This document shows, one piece after another, positions 3,331-34,218 of a stretch of 36,283 bases of DNA. The translations under genes and the position numbers were made by a program. How positions within the stretch are numbered: the stretch's first letter is position 1; every line of letters begins with the position of its first letter. Origin of the DNA: Oscillospiraceae bacterium (GTDB taxonomy: Bacteria > Bacillota > Clostridia > Oscillospirales > UBA929); NCBI GenBank assembly GCA_031253545.1, contig JAIRWH010000086.1, positions 1 through 36,283 on the forward strand, read 5' to 3'. Below the pieces are notes generated by a model that saw nothing but the letters and a program-made list of their open reading frames with translations, had not been told where the DNA came from and did not search any database.

Positions 3331-4070
3331 CACTCTAAGGTTATCCACATGGCCGGGCGCACACCGTAGCTCATGGTAACGGGCGAGCCGGTCGCGCTGA
3401 CCCCGCCCATAAAGTTCACGCACGCGGCGCTGGTTTTGGAACTGCCCGGCGAACGCAACCACCACCACACGCCGTCGGAGCCACCGTCCGTGGCTTTCCG
3501 CGCCGCGTCGTCGGCAAAATACGCGCCGGCTTCGTCCACACTCAACAAAAAGATATTATCTTCGGTGTCGTTGCCGCCGGGGGTGTCGTATTCCGGGTGG
3601 TTGGGCGTTGTAACCGTCGTCGGCAATATCCTGCTTTGCTCGTCCGCGCCGAAGGCATTGTAAAATGAGCCGTTCAGATAGTCGCGCAGCCCGCACTCCT
3701 CCCAGGTCATAAAGTCGTTTTCCGCGTGGTAAGGTCTTTCTCCCACGGTGTGTTCGCTGATAATCAGCGCCTTGCCGTCCGACTCCTCAAGTATAATCCA
3801 GCTGTATCCGCCGAACTCAATGGTGTTGCCGTCGTCCTGCGGGGTGCTTTTGTCGGAGGGGGTGGCAGGGTCTTCCGACGGCGAGGGGCTGTTTAGGGCG
3901 CTGTTTAGTGCGCTGTTCAGAAGGTCGCCCAGCGAATCACCGCCCGGCAGGCTGTCGCAGGCGGAAAGGGCGAAGGCAAGCGTGAGGATGGACACGGCAA
4001 CGGGGAAGAGCGCCCGGCCGCGCGCGCGGACACGCGCAAGGGGTGAAAGGGTCGGTTTTACGTGCTTCAT
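3330..4070 (-). CDS. DUF6273-like lipoprotein
   Basis: A 246-residue predicted lipoprotein. It has a basic N-terminus, a hydrophobic core (VAVSILTLAFA) and a lipobox ending LSAC, followed by a low-complexity Ser/Pro/Asp linker with the tandem repeat NSALNSALNS. The C-terminal domain carries WWLRSPG followed by the region up to YGVRPAMWI, typical of DUF6273 domains in Clostridia surface proteins. The ATG at 4070 is supported by GGAGGTT 9 nt upstream; an in-frame ATG at 4094 lacks this. It is the first gene of a two-gene operon with the beta-helix/SUMF1 protein, expressed from the promoter at 4254-4282. The pair probably acts at the cell envelope, but no substrate can be inferred. Confidence 0.8.
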   Translation of the reverse strand: MKHVKPTLSPLARVRARGRALFPVAVSILTLAFALSACDSLPGGDSLGDLLNSALNSALNSPSPSEDPATPSDKSTPQDDGNTIEFGGYSWIILEESDGKALIISEHTVGERPYHAENDFMTWEECGLRDYLNGSFYNAFGADEQSRILPTTVTTPNHPEYDTPGGNDTEDNIFLLSVDEAGAYFADDAARKATDGGSDGVWWWLRSPGSSKTSAACVNFMGGVSATGSPVTMSYGVRPAMWITLE

Positions 4071-25585: not shown

Positions 25586-26032
25586 TTACAGCAGAATATT
25601 GTTGATGGCGCGCAACAGTTCGCGGGCATCCGCATCGGACTTCATGGCGAGAAAGGCGGTGTCGTCGCCGGCGAGTGTGCCCACCAGGCCGGTAATACTC
25701 ATGGAGTCTAACGCCGAGCAGGCCGCCGACGCAAGACCGGGCAACGTCTTTAACACCACTATATTCTTCGCGATGTCGCACGATATAACGCTCTCGCGGA
25801 AAATGGTCTTCAAGCGGGGGGTCAGCCCGCCGTCGGAAAGGTTTTCCGCGCAGTAGCGATACGCCCCGCCGCCCACGGGCGCTTTCACCAAGCGCAGCTG
25901 CCTTATATCGCGCGACACCGTGGCCTGCGTCACGGCAAACCCGCTCGCCTCCAGCTTTTCGCACAGCTCCTTTTGTGTGCCGACAGGCTCGCGCGCGATA
26001 ATCTCCAAGATTTTGTTTCGGCGCAAGTACAT
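25586..26032 (-). CDS. argR: Arginine repressor ArgR
   Basis: A 148-residue ArgR/AhrC. The winged helix contains VTQATVSRDIRQLRLVK (about 34-50), and the C-terminal oligomerisation and arginine-binding core has GTLAGDDTAFLAM. ATG 26032 is supported by GGAAGG about 7 nt upstream. It ends 13 nt before recN. Its upstream side adjoins the integrase of the mobile element, so the native argR promoter region may have been altered by integration. Confidence 0.95.
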   Translation of the reverse strand: MYLRRNKILEIIAREPVGTQKELCEKLEASGFAVTQATVSRDIRQLRLVKAPVGGGAYRYCAENLSDGGLTPRLKTIFRESVISCDIAKNIVVLKTLPGLASAACSALDSMSITGLVGTLAGDDTAFLAMKSDADARELLRAINNILL

Positions 26033-26148: not shown

Positions 26149-27303
26149 TCAAATCGTGTACGAATCGTGTACGGAACAACCGACCCGATTGAGTACGGCG
26201 ATAGCCTTTTCCTCCTCTTTCGGGTAAAGGTGGGAGTACGTATTCCACGTCATCTCAACCTTTGCATGGCCAAGCCGCCGCGCAACCTCTTGAATGTTGA
26301 TACCCTCACTCGCAAGCAAAGACGCGTGGCTGTGCCGAAAGTCGTGTATGCGTATCCTCTTGACCCCCGCCACCTCCGCATATGTCCTGTTCCGCTTGGC
26401 AAGAACAACTCTCGTGACGACATCGGTACCCCCACATACCCTAAGACCGTCCACACCGCTCATAAGCTCCTTATGCCTTCGTTTCTGCTCGTTAAGGATA
26501 ACCATAAGAGGCTTTGGGATTTGCAACGTCCTCATGGATGACCTGTTCTTGGGAGGGGTTTCTTCGTTGTATATACTCATACTCCTTCTCACCGACAAAT
26601 ACTCACCGCTAATATCACCCCACTTCAACGCCAATATCTCCCCTATGCGAAGCCCCGTGTAATACGCTATGGCGAAGAACACATAATAGTTCCACTCGAC
26701 GTAAGTGTTCTTGTTGGTTTCGCAATTCTGCGCACTGCTCCTTGCTACGCCGATGAACCGCTCAAACTCCTCAGGGGTATAATAGCTCGCATCAGGCTTT
26801 ATGCTCATTACATCGCGGAAATTGCCAATACGAAAAAGGGGATTCTTAGTAATGTACTCCATCTTGACCGCACAGTTGAGAATCGCCCTCAACAATGAGT
26901 AAATCTCCTTTTTTGTCGAACAAAGCAAACCTGTCTTCTCAACCCCCAACTTCCATCCTTGGAGTACCGATGCTGTTAGCCTGTCAATCCGCACTTCGCC
27001 CAACGTATCTTTGATATAGTGCACATATTTCGACAAGCGCGATGCATATGTCGTCTTCCTCGTCTCATACTGCTTGACGGCTATGTACTCCTCGAACAAC
27101 TGCTGTACCGTTTTCCTTGTTGTCGGGTTCTCCTTCTTCTCCTTAACCTCCGTGTACAGCGCCCTCTCCAAATCACGCGCCGCTTCCAAGCCGTATGCCG
27201 TGCGCGTTACCTGCTTAGCACCCCCCGACTCATCCATAAAATTGACTCTCACCAGATACTTCCGCAAGCCGTCCCTCTTGCCCGTTGTCTTGTAAATAGG
27301 CAC
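26149..27303 (-). CDS. Tyrosine-type site-specific integrase
   Basis: A 384-residue phage/ICE-type tyrosine recombinase. It has an N-terminal arm-binding region, a SAM-like core-binding domain (about 65-165, VQQLFEEYIAVKQYETRKTT) and a catalytic domain with the Arg of YYTGLRIGEILALKWGD, HDFRHSHASLLASEG, LGHAKVEMTWNTYSHLYP (nucleophile Tyr). All R-H-R-H-Y residues are visible, so it looks active. It starts with GTG 27303 behind GGAGGG (7-nt spacing) and has a promoter at 27340-27368. It marks the left boundary of the element; its last codons contain a tandem repeat that may be part of the attachment site. Confidence 0.93.
   Translation of the reverse strand: MPIYKTTGKRDGLRKYLVRVNFMDESGGAKQVTRTAYGLEAARDLERALYTEVKEKKENPTTRKTVQQLFEEYIAVKQYETRKTTYASRLSKYVHYIKDTLGEVRIDRLTASVLQGWKLGVEKTGLLCSTKKEIYSLLRAILNCAVKMEYITKNPLFRIGNFRDVMSIKPDASYYTPEEFERFIGVARSSAQNCETNKNTYVEWNYYVFFAIAYYTGLRIGEILALKWGDISGEYLSVRRSMSIYNEETPPKNRSSMRTLQIPKPLMVILNEQKRRHKELMSGVDGLRVCGGTDVVTRVVLAKRNRTYAEVAGVKRIRIHDFRHSHASLLASEGINIQEVARRLGHAKVEMTWNTYSHLYPKEEEKAIAVLNRVGCSVHDSYTI
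26152..26173. repeat. Perfect tandem 11-bp repeat at the integrase 3' end; candidate attachment site
   Basis: AATCGTGTACG occurs twice without a gap (26152-26162 and 26163-26173) and overlaps the last codons of the integrase. This is where an attachment site would be expected. The matching copy at the far end lies outside the window. Confidence 0.5.
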
Positions 27304-27339
27304 AGTATTCCCTCCAAGGCGGCTTGACTTTGCGCTATC

Positions 27340-27368
27340 ATTTTAACATAATCTCGTCACACTATCAA
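27340..27368 (-). promoter_or_regulatory. Promoter of the integrase gene
   Basis: On the minus strand TTGATA (27363-27368), 17 bp, then TAAAAT (27340-27345), about 37 bp before the GTG start. Confidence 0.65.
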
Positions 27369-27469
27369 GCCTTTTTATAAGACCCTGACCCCCCCTTGGC
27401 TATGGCATCTCAAGCGTTTTTTCTCGCAACCATAACAGCTTAATACACCCTGCCCCTCATTCCTTTTCC

Positions 27470-27760
27470 CTATATCATCCCATATTTCCTGAGCTTTTCC
27501 ATACGCTTCTCCAAGTCGTCGATGTTAAGCCCCCACACCTCATAAGCTATGCCTGTATTGACCGTATGTATTCCAAAGGAACGTACATTTCTGTTAATCA
27601 TTTCCTCTCTTACCATCTGTTTGAGAGCTGCAATCTTACACGACGAATGTCTGTCGCCAAATATCTCGGCAATTTCTTTGTTCCCTATCTCCGGGTACAA
27701 GTAGTATACCCTCACCGCATTCTCAATGTTGCTTATCTGTGGAACACCGCTCCTTGCCAT
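27470..27760 (-). CDS. Small HTH-like protein of a mobile element
   Basis: A 96-residue protein I do not recognise by name. The segment YPEIGNKEIAEIFGDRHSSC followed by KIAALKQMVREEM resembles a helix-turn-helix, so it may bind DNA. Its ATG at 27760 has GGAGGGAG about 8 nt upstream. It follows the RusA-like gene by 22 nt and is probably in the same operon. Confidence 0.6.
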   Translation of the reverse strand: MARSGVPQISNIENAVRVYYLYPEIGNKEIAEIFGDRHSSCKIAALKQMVREEMINRNVRSFGIHTVNTGIAYEVWGLNIDDLEKRMEKLRKYGMI

Positions 27761-27782
27761 AATTTTTCTCCCTCCACTCGTT

Positions 27783-28208
27783 TTAATGAAGATTTACGCC
27801 GAGACTTTCTATTTGGATTTCAAGCCTTGGTTTTATGGAATAATACTTTTCTATCCTTGCGTCCGTAATCTGGGAGTCGTCGCGGTACGCAACCCCATTT
27901 AGGGCATCTTCGATAAGTTTCAGTATATTCGAGGCGTCGGGTTTCTTTGTGGGTCGTATTTCCCCGCTTTCCATCGCCGCTTTTGTCTTTTTGTTTTTTT
28001 GTGAGGGAATGCCGCAGTATGCGATGACGCTTATTGATAACGCCCCGGTTTCGTGTTTTATATTTCCGCATTGTCTTATGTATTCTATGCGGATTATGTT
28101 TTCGCTCATTGCGGTTTTTCCATCAGTATAGGTAATCACGTAATTGCTGTGTCTTGAAAACCGAGGTCTCCCCTTCCCCGTTGGCTCGCCGTCAACGACA
28201 AATTTCAT
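27783..28208 (-). CDS. RusA-family Holliday junction resolvase
   Basis: A 141-residue RusA-like endonuclease. FVVDGEPTGKGRPRFSR at the start and the acidic catalytic-type block KPDASNILKLIEDALNGVAY followed by RDDSQI are diagnostic. RusA enzymes resolve Holliday junctions and are common in prophages and ICEs. ATG 28208 is chosen over the longer frame from 28292 because AGGAGGA is 6 nt upstream and the protein then begins like other RusA proteins. It overlaps the preceding gene by 17 nt. Confidence 0.82.
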   Translation of the reverse strand: MKFVVDGEPTGKGRPRFSRHSNYVITYTDGKTAMSENIIRIEYIRQCGNIKHETGALSISVIAYCGIPSQKNKKTKAAMESGEIRPTKKPDASNILKLIEDALNGVAYRDDSQITDARIEKYYSIKPRLEIQIESLGVNLH

Positions 28209-28662
28209 CTTCGTCCTCCTGTGCGTCCTCCTGTGTATTGTCAAAAACGGGCTTGTTATAAATGTCCGTGAATTCCCATTTGCCGTTTTCATAACGCGCC
28301 CTGAATAGCGCGATGTTGTAGGAATAGCCGTTTAGCAAGACATAGTACAGTTCGGCGGTGGTGGAATAAGAAAGTGTGCCGTTTATCTCAACGGGAAACC
28401 CCTCCGCCTCTATCGCGATATATTCCGTTAATTTGCCAAAAGCCCCGATTTCTGTTTTTATGTTGCCTGTTGTTGTTGTGGCTCGTAATCCGAGTCCGTA
28501 TCTTTTGCTGAGATACTCGCCGAAATCGCCGTCTAAGCTGTGTTCCATGATTTCCGTTTCAAATGAAATATTGATATTGCCGAATATTTTTTCCGTGTAG
28601 TCATACAGTGGGCGGAAGTTGATGCCGTTCAAGAAATCCCTTTTCTTTTGGGTCTGTTTCAT
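28192..28662 (-). CDS. Hypothetical mobile-element protein
   Basis: A 156-residue protein that I do not recognise. It appears soluble: a basic start, a mixed alpha/beta body with FPVEINGTLSYSTTAELYYV, and a very acidic tail (NTQEDAQEDEDEICR). ATG 28662 has AGGAGGG 7 nt upstream and is preferred over 28689. It overlaps the RusA-like gene by 17 nt, so the two are co-translated. Confidence 0.6.
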   Translation of the reverse strand: MKQTQKKRDFLNGINFRPLYDYTEKIFGNINISFETEIMEHSLDGDFGEYLSKRYGLGLRATTTTGNIKTEIGAFGKLTEYIAIEAEGFPVEINGTLSYSTTAELYYVLLNGYSYNIALFRARYENGKWEFTDIYNKPVFDNTQEDAQEDEDEICR

Positions 28663-28696
28663 AATGCCCTCCTTTTGTTTTTTCAACATAATAATG

Positions 28697-28735: not shown

Positions 28736-29944
28736 CTAACGCTCTGTTCCGTAATCCGGGCCTGTCCGTATATGGGAAGGGTTTTGGCTGTATATTGTTT
28801 CCGAAAGCAGTTTAATCCTCCTGTCCAACGCGGAACACAGTGTGTCGCAACGGGCTTTGTCGAGAAACCGGGAATGCTTTATGATATTGCGCCATTCTTC
28901 GCTTACGTTTTTTAACGCGGATATGTCGAGCCAATCGAATGGTTGCGCTAATTTAATTTGTTTTTCGTGCGTGGATTCAAAAGGCTTGCATGGTGTTTTT
29001 ACGGAAGAGGGCCGTATCATCATAGTTGATTGTGAACACCACATTGATGTGCCGCTGTCGTAGATTGGGGCTATGCCGATATATTCTAAGGTTTCCGCAT
29101 TCCTTACCGCCCCGAAATTGCCCAAATGCCTGTCTTCATTGGCAATGATGTAGTCCAACACAAGCATCATGCCAATGCTTTTTTCGGCGGAAGGGATACG
29201 AAGGGTTTCACAACAATTAAGGAAATGTTTGTAAAGCGATATGTGGTTCGCTTGTTTTTGGGTTCGCGTAATTTGGTATGCGGTAACAAGCTCGGTATTT
29301 GCCGTCAAAAAATTTTCGCATACCGAATACGGATAATCCTCTGTGTCCGATATTAGCGTATATGGTACGTGGGGAACACCCAGGCGCGACATGATTAACG
29401 TCGCGAGGATTTCATTATATGGTTCCTGTTGGAACGGATTATTGCCGCCTTTAACAAGGCAATATTTGTTTTCGATAACCCTCCATCTCTTTTTCAGTTG
29501 GCCATCCGATGTATTATCGGGAGAAAAATAATTATCCTCTTCCGTTGGCTCATTTTCGGCGAACAATATATTTCCGATGTCGTAAGAGAATGAATTGGCA
29601 AAGAAATTTACTGCGCCCCATGATATGTCGGAGTTTCCGGGGCGTATCCAGTACTGGTCTGAAAACGACAGGCAAAGGCTTTTCATCGGTAATTGTTCCG
29701 TTGAATGCACCCCCAGTTTCGGCAAAGCGTCTTTTATGCTTATGCGGCTATCGGGAATCGAGCGGTTTTTAATCCAGTTGTTGAGCGCGGCGCGGTCGGT
29801 AGGTTGTACGCCGACCGGTATATGCTCCGGCGAGTGGATGGCTTTTATTTTTGTTATGGAAAAAGTATCATAGTCGATTTCTATATCGGCAACCCGTGTG
29901 TTTTGGTGCATGAGGGTATATGGTTTTATTCCCATACTGTCCAT
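28736..29944 (-). CDS. HipA-like kinase domain protein, 402 aa
   Basis: A protein whose C-terminal half is a HipA/PI3K-like kinase. Visible elements are a candidate ATP-binding Lys in YCLVKGG (about 165) with EPYNEILATLIMSRLGV after it, the catalytic loop ANEDRHLGNFG (269-278) and the metal-binding DSG of IAPIYDSGTS (about 296). The N-terminal 150 residues are not the usual HipA N-domain and I do not recognise them. Known HipA toxins phosphorylate aminoacyl-tRNA synthetases and are held in check by a HipB DNA-binding partner; no such gene is adjacent here. ATG 29944 has GGGGAGG 7 nt upstream. The promoter region carries phased repeats and an inverted repeat, suggesting tight control. Confidence 0.8.
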   Translation of the reverse strand: MDSMGIKPYTLMHQNTRVADIEIDYDTFSITKIKAIHSPEHIPVGVQPTDRAALNNWIKNRSIPDSRISIKDALPKLGVHSTEQLPMKSLCLSFSDQYWIRPGNSDISWGAVNFFANSFSYDIGNILFAENEPTEEDNYFSPDNTSDGQLKKRWRVIENKYCLVKGGNNPFQQEPYNEILATLIMSRLGVPHVPYTLISDTEDYPYSVCENFLTANTELVTAYQITRTQKQANHISLYKHFLNCCETLRIPSAEKSIGMMLVLDYIIANEDRHLGNFGAVRNAETLEYIGIAPIYDSGTSMWCSQSTMMIRPSSVKTPCKPFESTHEKQIKLAQPFDWLDISALKNVSEEWRNIIKHSRFLDKARCDTLCSALDRRIKLLSETIYSQNPSHIRTGPDYGTER

Positions 29945-29989
29945 CGAATTGCCTCCCCTTTGCCGTTACGCTATTTTTCCATTATGAAC

Positions 29990-30018
29990 AGTATAACACG
30001 GGTCACTTGGCATTACAA
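29990..30018 (-). promoter_or_regulatory. Promoter of the 402-aa HipA-like gene
   Basis: On the minus strand TTGTAA (30013-30018), 17 bp, then TATACT (29990-29995). The -35 lies inside an inverted repeat and phased direct repeats. Confidence 0.7.
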
Positions 30019-30021
30019 GTG
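30004..30021. promoter_or_regulatory. Operator-like inverted repeat over the -35 element
   Basis: CACTTG-N6-CAAGTG is a perfect 6-bp inverted repeat covering the -35 hexamer, the position expected for a repressor site. Confidence 0.55.
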
Positions 30022-30056
30022 CAGAAATTTGGCATCTTATATGCACAAAATTGGCA
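30007..30056. repeat. Direct repeats of TTGGCA at exact 22-bp steps
   Basis: TTGGCA begins at 30007, 30029 and 30051. The first two 22-bp units also share TGCA at positions 14-17 and AAA at 19-21. A 22-bp step is about two helical turns, so proteins bound to each copy would lie on the same face of the DNA. Confidence 0.6.
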
Positions 30057-30123: not shown

Positions 30124-30161
30124 TTTTGGAGAGAAACGGGGTTTCCCGTTTCTCTCCAAAA
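30124..30161. repeat. Perfect 17-bp inverted repeat with a 4-nt loop
   Basis: TTTTGGAGAGAAACGGG (30124-30140) and its exact complement (30145-30161) flank GTTT. It lies 23 bp past the helicase/methylase fragment. The arms run TTTT to AAAA in both orientations, the opposite of an intrinsic terminator. Confidence 0.7.
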
Positions 30162-30184: not shown

Positions 30185-30490
30185 TCATCTCTCATAGGCT
30201 GATTCGTCTTCTTGTTCCTCGCCATTTTCCGGCTCGTTTTCGGTTTCCGCCTCTTTTTCTTTCTTTTCCTCATTTTCATCGAGGACGGGCGCTTCGTCTT
30301 TTTTGTCCAGATTAAGTTTCGCGTTAAGTTCCGCAAGCCTTGCTTCTTTTTGGTTGAGTTCATCTTCTCGATCAAACGGAATGAGAAGTTGTTTTTCGGT
30401 GATTGCTATGTTTTTCTTGATTTCTTCAAGCATTTGTTTCTGTTCCGTTATCCCTTTCTCGAAACCGTTAAAAGCGTTATCTATACGGGT
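30185..30490 (-). pseudogene. C-terminal fragment of a large conjugative-element helicase/methylase-type protein
   Basis: An open frame running from the TnpB junction near 30490 to the stop at 30185 encodes RIDNAFNGFEKGITEQKQML, then EEIKKNIAITEKQLL, IPFDREDELNQKEARLAELN and AKLNLDKKDE, ending in a very acidic tail. This matches my memory of the extreme C-terminus of the giant SNF2-helicase/N6-methylase proteins of clostridial conjugative elements. The rest of that protein (well over 1000 residues) is missing. An internal ATG at 30433 has no clear SD. Family assignment is moderate because only the coiled-coil tail is available. Confidence 0.5.
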
Positions 30491-30875
30491 AATATTTGTG
30501 CATGAAGTCGAGGACTTGCCTGTTGCGTTTTTCCGCCAGCCCTTGCAACGTCGCCGTCCACTTACCCTGCCCCAGCCTGTCGGCTATCTCGGAGTAGTGC
30601 GCCCGCCGCTTGTTGTAGAGCAGGTTCATGGACTTCAGACCCTTGCCATTCAACGCCAGCGCCCGGAAACCGGTCACGTTGGAGGTTATGGCTGCGAAGT
30701 TGTCCATGCCCAGATCCAAGCTCATGTAGCGGCCGTTGTCGGGGATGAGGTCGGGTACTTCCGCGCGGTATATCACCTCGATGACCAGGTTGTTCCAGTG
30801 CGGGACTATGCGGGCGCCCTGCACCTTCTTGGACTTGCCGAACGGGACTTTGAACCCGCCGAACACCTTAGGCTT
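30477..30875 (-). pseudogene. TnpB (IS200/IS605 OrfB) central fragment
   Basis: About 132 residues of a TnpB RNA-guided nuclease: VQGARIVPHWNNLVIEVIYR, then the RuvC-I motif MSLDLGMDNFAAIT (catalytic Asp present), LNGKGLKSMNLLYNKRRAHY and LAEKRNRQVLDFMHK. The N-terminal domain, RuvC-II, the zinc ribbon and RuvC-III are absent, so it is inactive. It is fused in frame to the restriction-enzyme fragment before it, and its base composition is visibly more GC-rich than that fragment. It ends at a stop (30477) just past the junction with the helicase/methylase tail. No tnpA was found. Confidence 0.75.
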
Positions 30876-31464
30876 GATGTGTATTGCGTCGTTGAGAATA
30901 TTTAATGCGATGTTCATCCATTTTTCAAGCTCCACAGAGGGTTTACTCCCAATCGGCGTTTTCTTTGTGAGCGTAGAGGTCAAACCATCTATCGCTTCGT
31001 CAATCTTCTCGATAGCTTGATAATTTTGTTTCAGAGCCAAGCCTTGTAAATAATTGCGGTTTTCGCGAAGTTCGGTTATATGAGCCTTTAACTTATCTAT
31101 GTTGTTTGGTACAGGTATAGCCTCAAACGGAAGGTTTAACACGTGGGCTAACTCCGTATTCTCGGCGATAATTTTACTCGCAATTTCACGAAGTTTTAAT
31201 GGCGTTTCAAATGGTAAGGTATAAGCATTGTAATCACTAATGTAACGCGTGTAATCCGCGGCAGTTTCAAACACAATGGCCGAAGCATTGTCATGCTCTA
31301 AGAGAGCGCCAGTCTCAATCATACGGCGAGGCTCAAGGTCAATATAATACCCGCCGCCGCGAATGTAGATATACCGAGTGAGGCGCAGATACCTCACCAT
31401 GTTGTCGGTATACTCGTGGATGTTTTTCTCGGCGTTGCGGAAATTGCTGAGATAGTTTGCAATG
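30876..31464 (-). pseudogene. AlwI-family type II restriction endonuclease, C-terminal fragment
   Basis: About 195 residues resembling the C-terminal half of AlwI-family restriction endonucleases: NYLSNFRNAEKNIHEYTDNM, then VRYLRLTRYIYIRGGGYYID, LEPRRMIETGALLEHDNASA and LPFETPLKLREIASKI. The N-terminal half is replaced by a pilin-like gene fragment, and the extreme C-terminus by the TnpB fragment in the same frame. No cognate methylase is visible. The ATG at 31400 has GAGTATACC upstream and no good SD. A dead remnant is the most likely state. Confidence 0.7.
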
Positions 31465-31725
31465 AATGGCGAGCGCGAACATTATCCCGCCGACAAACGC
31501 CACAAGCAACCCTATCCGCATAATCCACGTGACAAAAAACCCCACGACGTTGTTGAATACATTCTCCGCATCAACGCTTGGACTCACAGCCCCTGCCAAC
31601 GGCGCAAACAACGTCCCCGCGATAAGGGCAACCATAATGATTGCCGTAACCCTCATCGCCCACCTCGCCTTACCGACTCCTTCCTGCGCTACGACCGCTT
31701 CCTGCTTTCTCTTGTTTGCCTTCAT
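31465..31725 (-). pseudogene. VirB2-like conjugal pilin, N-terminal fragment
   Basis: About 87 residues: a basic start, a signal-like hydrophobic segment (VTAIIMVALIAGTLFAPLAGA) and a second one (FFVTWIMRIGLLVAFVGGIMFALAI). This looks like the small VirB2/TrbC-type pilin of ICE type IV secretion systems, which normally continue with a short loop and a further hydrophobic segment. After residue 87 the frame passes into the restriction-enzyme fragment out of frame and stops at 31339, so the C-terminus is lost. ATG 31725 has AGGAGAG about 9 nt upstream. Confidence 0.5.
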
Positions 31726-33763: not shown

Positions 33764-34144
33764 TTAGCCGAAAATATCCTCGTACTGTGCCTTGCTCATT
33801 ATCGCCACGAACGGCGACTCTTCAATTGCCTTAATTGCTTGCCTTGCCTCCTCCTCGGTTGTCTTGGTGACGTTATACAGCGCCACCATCTTTCCGCACC
33901 GCGACACGAACTCAATACTCCTCACATTTTCCGCCCACACTCGTCTTTCCTGTCCTGCTTCGTCCCCATATAAATCGTCCAGTCTGCACTCAAAGAACTG
34001 CGCCAGCTTACGCGCCAACGAGAGGTGGACGTCCGCGCCTCGTTCAATGGCGAAAATTGTCCGCTTCGTTGTTTTAACGGCGGCGGCAAGCGCATCCTGC
34101 GTTATACCCCTTTTAATCCGAAACTCTTTAACCCTATTAACCAC
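33764..34144 (-). CDS. XRE-family transcriptional regulator
   Basis: A 126-residue regulator. The N-terminal helix-turn-helix covers about 3-58 (VNRVKEFRIKRGITQDALAA, then TTKRTIFAIERGADV) and resembles Cro/C1 repressors. The C-terminal part (about 60-126) is of unknown function. A longer frame starts at GTG 34201, but a consensus promoter overlaps those codons (34190-34218), so that start would precede the transcript. GTG 34144 has GGAG 6 nt upstream and gives a typical XRE start. It may control genes of the element, for example through the repeated palindrome. Confidence 0.75.
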   Translation of the reverse strand: MVNRVKEFRIKRGITQDALAAAVKTTKRTIFAIERGADVHLSLARKLAQFFECRLDDLYGDEAGQERRVWAENVRSIEFVSRCGKMVALYNVTKTTEEEARQAIKAIEESPFVAIMSKAQYEDIFG

Positions 34145-34189
34145 GTACCTCTCCAACCTTTCCGTACAAGTGTAGTTTACTTCCTCTTT

Positions 34190-34218
34190 ATTGTATTCCA
34201 CTTCCTTGTCCCTGTCAA
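34190..34218 (-). promoter_or_regulatory. Promoter of the XRE regulator
   Basis: On the minus strand a perfect TTGACA (34213-34218), 17 bp, then TACAAT (34190-34195). The start point would be near 34183, about 40 nt before GTG 34144. Confidence 0.72.

Follow-up and report, generated by a model that had tools for sequence, protein, structure and literature searches.

The window (the whole stretch of DNA analysed, 36,283 nucleotides) is contig C30 of the source genome G000, an assembly of 1.8 Mb in 96 contigs. Its left part is chromosomal: argR was identified there with Pfam, and from reading the open reading frames (ORFs) we take others to be rpoB, rpoC, tuf, fusA and recN. An integrated island starts at about 26.0 kb, and inside this island, within a 240-bp gap between genes, lies a short array of phased direct repeats. 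The features around it are the following.

26149 to 28689, minus strand: genes for a 165-aa protein, a RusA-like resolvase, a 96-aa protein and a tyrosine integrase, downstream of the HipA-like gene
28736 to 29944, minus strand: HipA-like kinase gene, 402 aa with a HipA_C domain, the first gene behind the predicted promoter
29990 to 30018, minus strand: predicted promoter, TTGTAA-17-TATACT with TG before the -10, a consensus match only
30004 to 30021, no strand assigned: inverted repeat CACTTG-N6-CAAGTG, overlapping the predicted -35 and within chance
30007 to 30056, minus strand: five-step 11-bp array (22-bp double step), TGCCAATTTTG TGCATATAAGA TGCCAAATTTC TGCACTTGTAA TGCCAA
30020 to 30034, plus strand: 15-mer TGCAGAAATTTGGCA, an imperfect dyad TGCnnAAnTTnnGCA
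30042 to 30056, plus strand: second copy of the 15-mer, TGCACAAAATTGGCA, identical to the first at 13 of 15 positions, its dyad with one mismatch
30124 to 30161, no strand assigned: inverted repeat upstream of the array, its 17-bp arms matching perfectly around a 4-nt loop; neither strand has a T-run

The HipA-like gene and the same-strand genes downstream of it form a possible operon. Neither the 82-aa ORF upstream of the HipA-like gene nor the 165-aa ORF downstream had a Pfam match, and the 165-aa and 96-aa island proteins found none in the domain scans. No hipB was recognised adjacent to the HipA-like gene. A protein of the XRE type, with an HTH_3 domain, is encoded at 33764-34201, about 4 kb from the array. 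The scanned ORFs of the window included no response regulator or recognisable activator, and no replication initiator was recognised among them or beside the array; scanning the window against Rfam (gathering threshold) and for tRNAs gave no hits. In the region 30477-31725, one ORF joins an AlwI-endonuclease-like part to a TnpB-like part (the latter below the Pfam cut-off). A second ORF that overlaps it resembles a small membrane protein, and the region looks like fused mobile-element debris.

On the plus strand the array shows TTGGCA at 30007-30012, 30029-30034 and 30051-30056, in steps of exactly 22 bp, as a reading made from the sequence alone had pointed out. The same reading held that the first two copies have more of the unit in common, and the first and second 22-mers are indeed identical at 15 of 22 positions. 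The spacing equals two turns of the helix. We find a finer period underneath: GCA recurs at 30010, 30021, 30032, 30043 and 30054, a strict 11-bp step, so that on the minus strand the array reads TGCCAA/TGC/TGCCAA/TGC/TGCCAA. Followed towards the gene on that strand it runs TGCCAATTTTG TGCATATAAGA TGCCAAATTTC TGCACTTGTAA TGCCAAGTGAC, the full TGCCAA alternating with a weaker box. It is a short array, made of only two full 22-bp units and a third core (about 2.3 units).

The promoter that we infer for the HipA-like gene is a consensus match of a kind for which 1.3 were expected and one was found. Its predicted -35, TTGTAA at 30018-30013 on the minus strand, is weak (4/6), and its predicted -10 ends 45 bp ahead of the HipA-like start codon. 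If transcription starts about 7 bases past the -10, near 29983, the array would span about -73 to -24. Two near-identical 22-bp sites would then lie upstream of the -35 or reach up to it, and the last, weaker half-site would fall in the spacer between -35 and -10. The sequence-only reading also placed an inverted repeat on the -35. That repeat is present (CACTTG at 30004-30009, CAAGTG at 30016-30021) and overlaps the predicted -35, but inverted repeats with 6-bp arms and gaps of 3-10 occur in 11.55% of 80-bp shuffles. Seen as inverted repeats of the hipBA type, the array's one 6-bp inverted repeat and its two imperfect 15-bp dyads are all within chance. An operator made of this inverted repeat and bound by the XRE protein as a simple repressor would profit from the repeat's seat over the -35 and from the confirmed HTH_3 domain. 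Elsewhere in the window, however, CACTTG and CAAGTG occur only as scattered singles, the copy at 34167, within the 5' part of the XRE ORF, having no partner, and this sequence analysis found no tie between the XRE protein and the array; together with the frequency of such repeats in shuffles, this makes simple repression by the XRE protein very improbable.

TTGGCA alone is no commoner in the window than chance would give (21 found, 24.15 expected), and the exact TTGGCA triple with gaps of 14-18 bp occurs once there and in none of 100 shuffles. This motif was chosen post hoc, after being seen. If every 6-mer is allowed, repeated in three equal steps of 10-40 bp, 10% of 60 whole-window shuffles contain a triple and the real window holds two more, at 3888 and 12103; within the 240-bp intergenic stretch, the same search succeeds in 0.14% of 5000 shuffles. 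Measured as periodicity, the identity of 21/28 at offset 22 is the window's best at period 22, and it ranks third among the best scores of periods 9-40, below 3885 (period 12) and 21474 (period 27). None of 2000 shuffles of the 240-bp gap was as periodic at period 22, and 0.1% were at any period from 9 to 40. A five-fold trinucleotide repeat is not unusual by itself, since four other periods each yield one in the window; for the five-fold TGC pattern, the array is the sole mismatch-free match in its own genome. With one mismatch, 17 genomes of the family gave 14 places against 10 in the control, among the matches listed, and those of genome G001 are mostly tandem minisatellites. Several distinct 11-bp tandem repeat families containing TGC were seen in that genome, on contigs C11, C58, C8 and C15.

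Conservation was sought upstream of homologues of the HipA-like gene, which was the refuting test named by the sequence-only reading. The outcome was negative: no comparable phased repeat (12/15 identity at a step of 15-33 bp) was found in any of 24 regions, namely those of 23 homologues with the stronger search matches and one phage record (H1), the weaker matches having been inspected by motif only. As the homologues are at most about 52% identical to the HipA-like protein and stand in other surroundings, the test is a weak one, and a recently acquired site could be missed. Eight phage records encode HipA-like proteins, at less than 60% identity; one of the eight (H1) entered the test for the array, and H2 stops 12 bp before the match. 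A first viral scan for the HipA-like protein gave no relative, and the plasmid search gave no DNA match. The 165-aa neighbour, with 155 aa as the query, was found only in G000 among 388 genomes. By eye, inverted repeats lie near likely promoters upstream of the HipA-like gene at L028, L036, L038, L040 and L044, and their sequences differ.

Other copies of the array are equally scarce. When one mismatch was allowed, G117 was the only one of 197 genomes of the order, besides that of the window, in which the TTGGCA triple was found. Within G000, pairs at a 22-bp step with at most one mismatch occupy 8 places, against 10 in the backward control; those outside the array all lie inside open frames of at least 100 aa, as a relaxed triple at C26:77662-77711 lies inside coding sequence, and no second copy of the array was found outside coding frames. 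The 15-mer TGCASAAAWTTGGCA, with at most two mismatches, has 11 places in G000 (two of them the array) against 1 in the backward control. Of the other nine, eight fall within open frames (at least 100 aa) and only C4:167-181 is intergenic; because so few are intergenic we do not build on this excess. The intergenic place (L052) is a weak copy ahead of a second integrase gene, at 223-1401 of that contig. No site of the array's kind, judged as an OmpR/PhoB-type operator, was found at other promoters of G000, and titles and the beginnings of abstracts held no description of the motif.

These observations bear on the reading in which the spacing is chance or neutral, for example the decayed remnant of a local duplication in an A+T-rich gap between genes, to which no protein binds. 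It is helped by the choice of the motif after sight, by the equal-step triples in shuffled and real windows, by the relaxed triple within coding sequence, by the lack of conservation seen in the homologues' upstream regions and by viral contigs, where the exact 22-bp triple occurs in 30 stretches against 25 in the backward control. The rarity of the periodicity in local shuffles and the place of the repeats directly upstream of a promoter-like pair argue against it, and we consider it somewhat unlikely.

Two further explanations come from mobile elements, and here the viral contigs and the ends of the island are informative. The TGCCAA-N5 triple occurs in at least 120 stretches of viral contigs (80 listed) against 97 in the control (80 listed). 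Such totals do not point to clear enrichment; the one difference from the control is how near the arrays lie to integrase genes. Among the matches listed, 7 of 81 viral loci have the array within 250 bp of an integrase gene, against none of 80 controls, and a recognised integrase of any kind is present at 14 of the 81 test loci and at 4 of the 80 controls. At five of the seven integrase-near loci a tRNA-like 3' end could be made out by eye close to the array. At L161, L139, L178, L147 and L146, where array, integrase gene and tRNA-like 3' end were seen together, the arrays are probably integrase arm sites (the domains that bind such sites are treated in PMC8138268). Arm-type sites resemble our array in being direct repeats with an 11-bp step, with TGCCAA in several viral examples. 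Unlike in those examples, the ends of this island carry other paired repeats. An 18-bp stretch, TTGCGCCGAAACAAAATC, is common to the window (26009-26026, at the start of argR) and to the end of contig C79 (L341, 291-308, beside nadK), the contig that holds the NAD kinase gene of G000. In the relative G014 the NAD kinase gene stands directly before argR (Pfam), and from reading we take the same to hold in three more of five relatives; G007 differs. Near each island end there is a pair of GTACACGA repeats with an 11-bp step (window 26154-26172; L341 219-237), and these, not TGCCAA, look like the arm sites of the resident integrase. The array is 2.7 kb from the integrase start and the att core at 26009-26026 is 4 kb from the array, not adjacent as for arm sites, and the stretch around the array has at most 9 bp in common with the integrase-side island end. 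Once the island ends were found, we dropped the array as the arm set of the resident integrase; arm-type sites of a tyrosine integrase, of this element or an earlier one, are a highly improbable explanation for it.

The sequence-only reading had offered an iteron-like site as its second possibility, that is, a relic or working origin at which a replication initiator binds 22-bp repeats. The layout has a striking parallel in lactococcal theta origins: the repB region (PMC3138775) combines repeats of 22 bp with an inverted repeat that falls on the last half repeat, an extended -10 and then the gene. The locus here is laid out in the same way, but with only about 2.3 units and with an inverted repeat that is within chance. 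Among the viral matches listed, the TGCCAA-N5 array falls inside some ORF of at least 60 aa at 51 of 80 loci, and five chosen arrays that were scanned (L160, L067, L156, L167, L190) all lie inside phage replication-initiator, primosomal or helicase-loader genes; these five are probably origin iterons. Against an origin at our locus, the lactococcal region has 3.5 repeats where the array has two full units and a third core; the array sits in an integrated island on the chromosome; and the gene directly downstream encodes a HipA_C domain, that is, a HipA-like kinase and not an initiator, with no Rep protein recognised among the scanned ORFs. An iteron-like origin is thus quite unlikely, although the term describes the layout fairly.

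The comparison that proved most useful came through G117. TTGGCA-N5-TTGGCA occurs 17 times in five genomes (G060, G092, G105, G117, G143) of g41, a genus within the same order as the source of the window, against 8 in the backward control, and not at all in six other genomes, G000 included (control 3). These g41 loci are L342-L357 and L240. At 14 of 15 distinct places a -10 hexamer (at least 5/6 to TATAAT) follows 21-22 bp after the last box; L349, one of the 14, has a better match at 25, which is also the distance of the best match at the remaining place, L355. A gene scan took in 10 of the 15 ORFs that are the longest to begin within about 400 bp: four matched endolysin or amidase, two the terminase large subunit and one, weakly, a tail fibre, with three unassigned. 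The g41 elements have the look of late promoters of phages, each with a tandem box for an activator. By eye, viral contig L075 has a similar array ahead of a promoter; a phage transcriptional regulator gene (phrog_36) precedes that array and a ParB-like gene follows it. Their core hexamer is identical to that of the array, and the array's fourth box (start 30023) stands 28 bp, start to start, from the -10, as the last box does in g41. TTGGCA points towards the -10 in g41 and away from it at the array, however, and on the plus strand no -10-like hexamer occurs 21-23 bp after the array's last TTGGCA. With its hexamers reversed and no plus-strand -10 in register, the array does not belong to the g41 promoter class, and we rejected it as a late promoter of that type; by analogy, it may work by the same principle. 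No packaging or lysis genes were recognised downstream of it, where the HipA-like, RusA and integrase genes are found together with the unmatched 165-aa and 96-aa proteins.

We also compared the array with bacterial and phage regulatory sites of known design. Operators of the OmpR/PhoB type have direct repeats 11 and 22 bp apart, centre to centre, several per promoter (PMC3798270). The array, with at least two direct repeats about 11 bp apart, resembles the ArcA box and the pho box in its tandem repeats at 11 and 22 bp; it differs in sequence, in having no recognised regulator and in showing no regulon in G000. In Gram-positive phages, late activators recognise tandem direct repeats placed directly ahead of the -10, and these repeats span -76 to -32 (Alt) or -107 to -42 (PMC13123087). 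Ltr/Alt late promoters thus share phased direct repeats with the array, at about -73 to -24 compared with -76 to -32 for Alt. The array departs from them, as from the g41 promoters, in its reversed hexamer, in preceding a kinase gene and not late genes, and in having no other copy in G000. The hipBA operators, too, are multiple phased sites ahead of a hipA-type gene. There, however, the antitoxin HipB binds inverted repeats, TATCC-N8-GGATA (PMC3920265), whereas the array consists of direct repeats and no adjacent hipB was recognised.

Comparison with the 11- and 22-bp designs of OmpR/PhoB, and the weighing of the rivals, leave as best supported an operator whose regulator, of the OmpR/PhoB type or a phage-type activator, would bind direct repeats in tandem. 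We hold this reading tentatively, a little short of calling it probable. It draws on the local shuffle frequency of 0.1-0.14% and on the overlap of the repeats with the -10/-35 pair. The cooperative operator proposed by the sequence-only reading is thus supported in part: phased direct repeats at about -73 to -24 of a plausible promoter fit it, but the weak test for conservation at 24 homologous genes found none. The regulator would bind the direct repeats on one face of the helix, each subunit taking an 11-bp step or each dimer a 22-bp unit, and would then control the promoter of the HipA-like gene. The repeats, their phasing and position and the gene behind them are observed; start site, protein binding, the regulator and the sign of control are inferred. 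The position of the array and the weak -35 would suit an activator, and the innermost half-site might repress. The regulator may be encoded by the host. A bolder proposal, that an activator of the mobile element targets the array and so switches on the HipA-like kinase, the RusA resolvase and the integrase together, seems to us very unlikely.

Taken as an operator, the array is of an ordinary kind and adds one more to the promoter arrays with helical phasing. The TTGGCA-box promoter that recurs ahead of phage lysis and packaging genes in the related genus can be tested directly. If the joint switch were true, the programme by which the island excises would include a growth-controlling kinase. 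Were a protein to bind it, the array would show how a HipA-like kinase is controlled without an adjacent HipB, and would tie that kinase to the life of the island that carries it.
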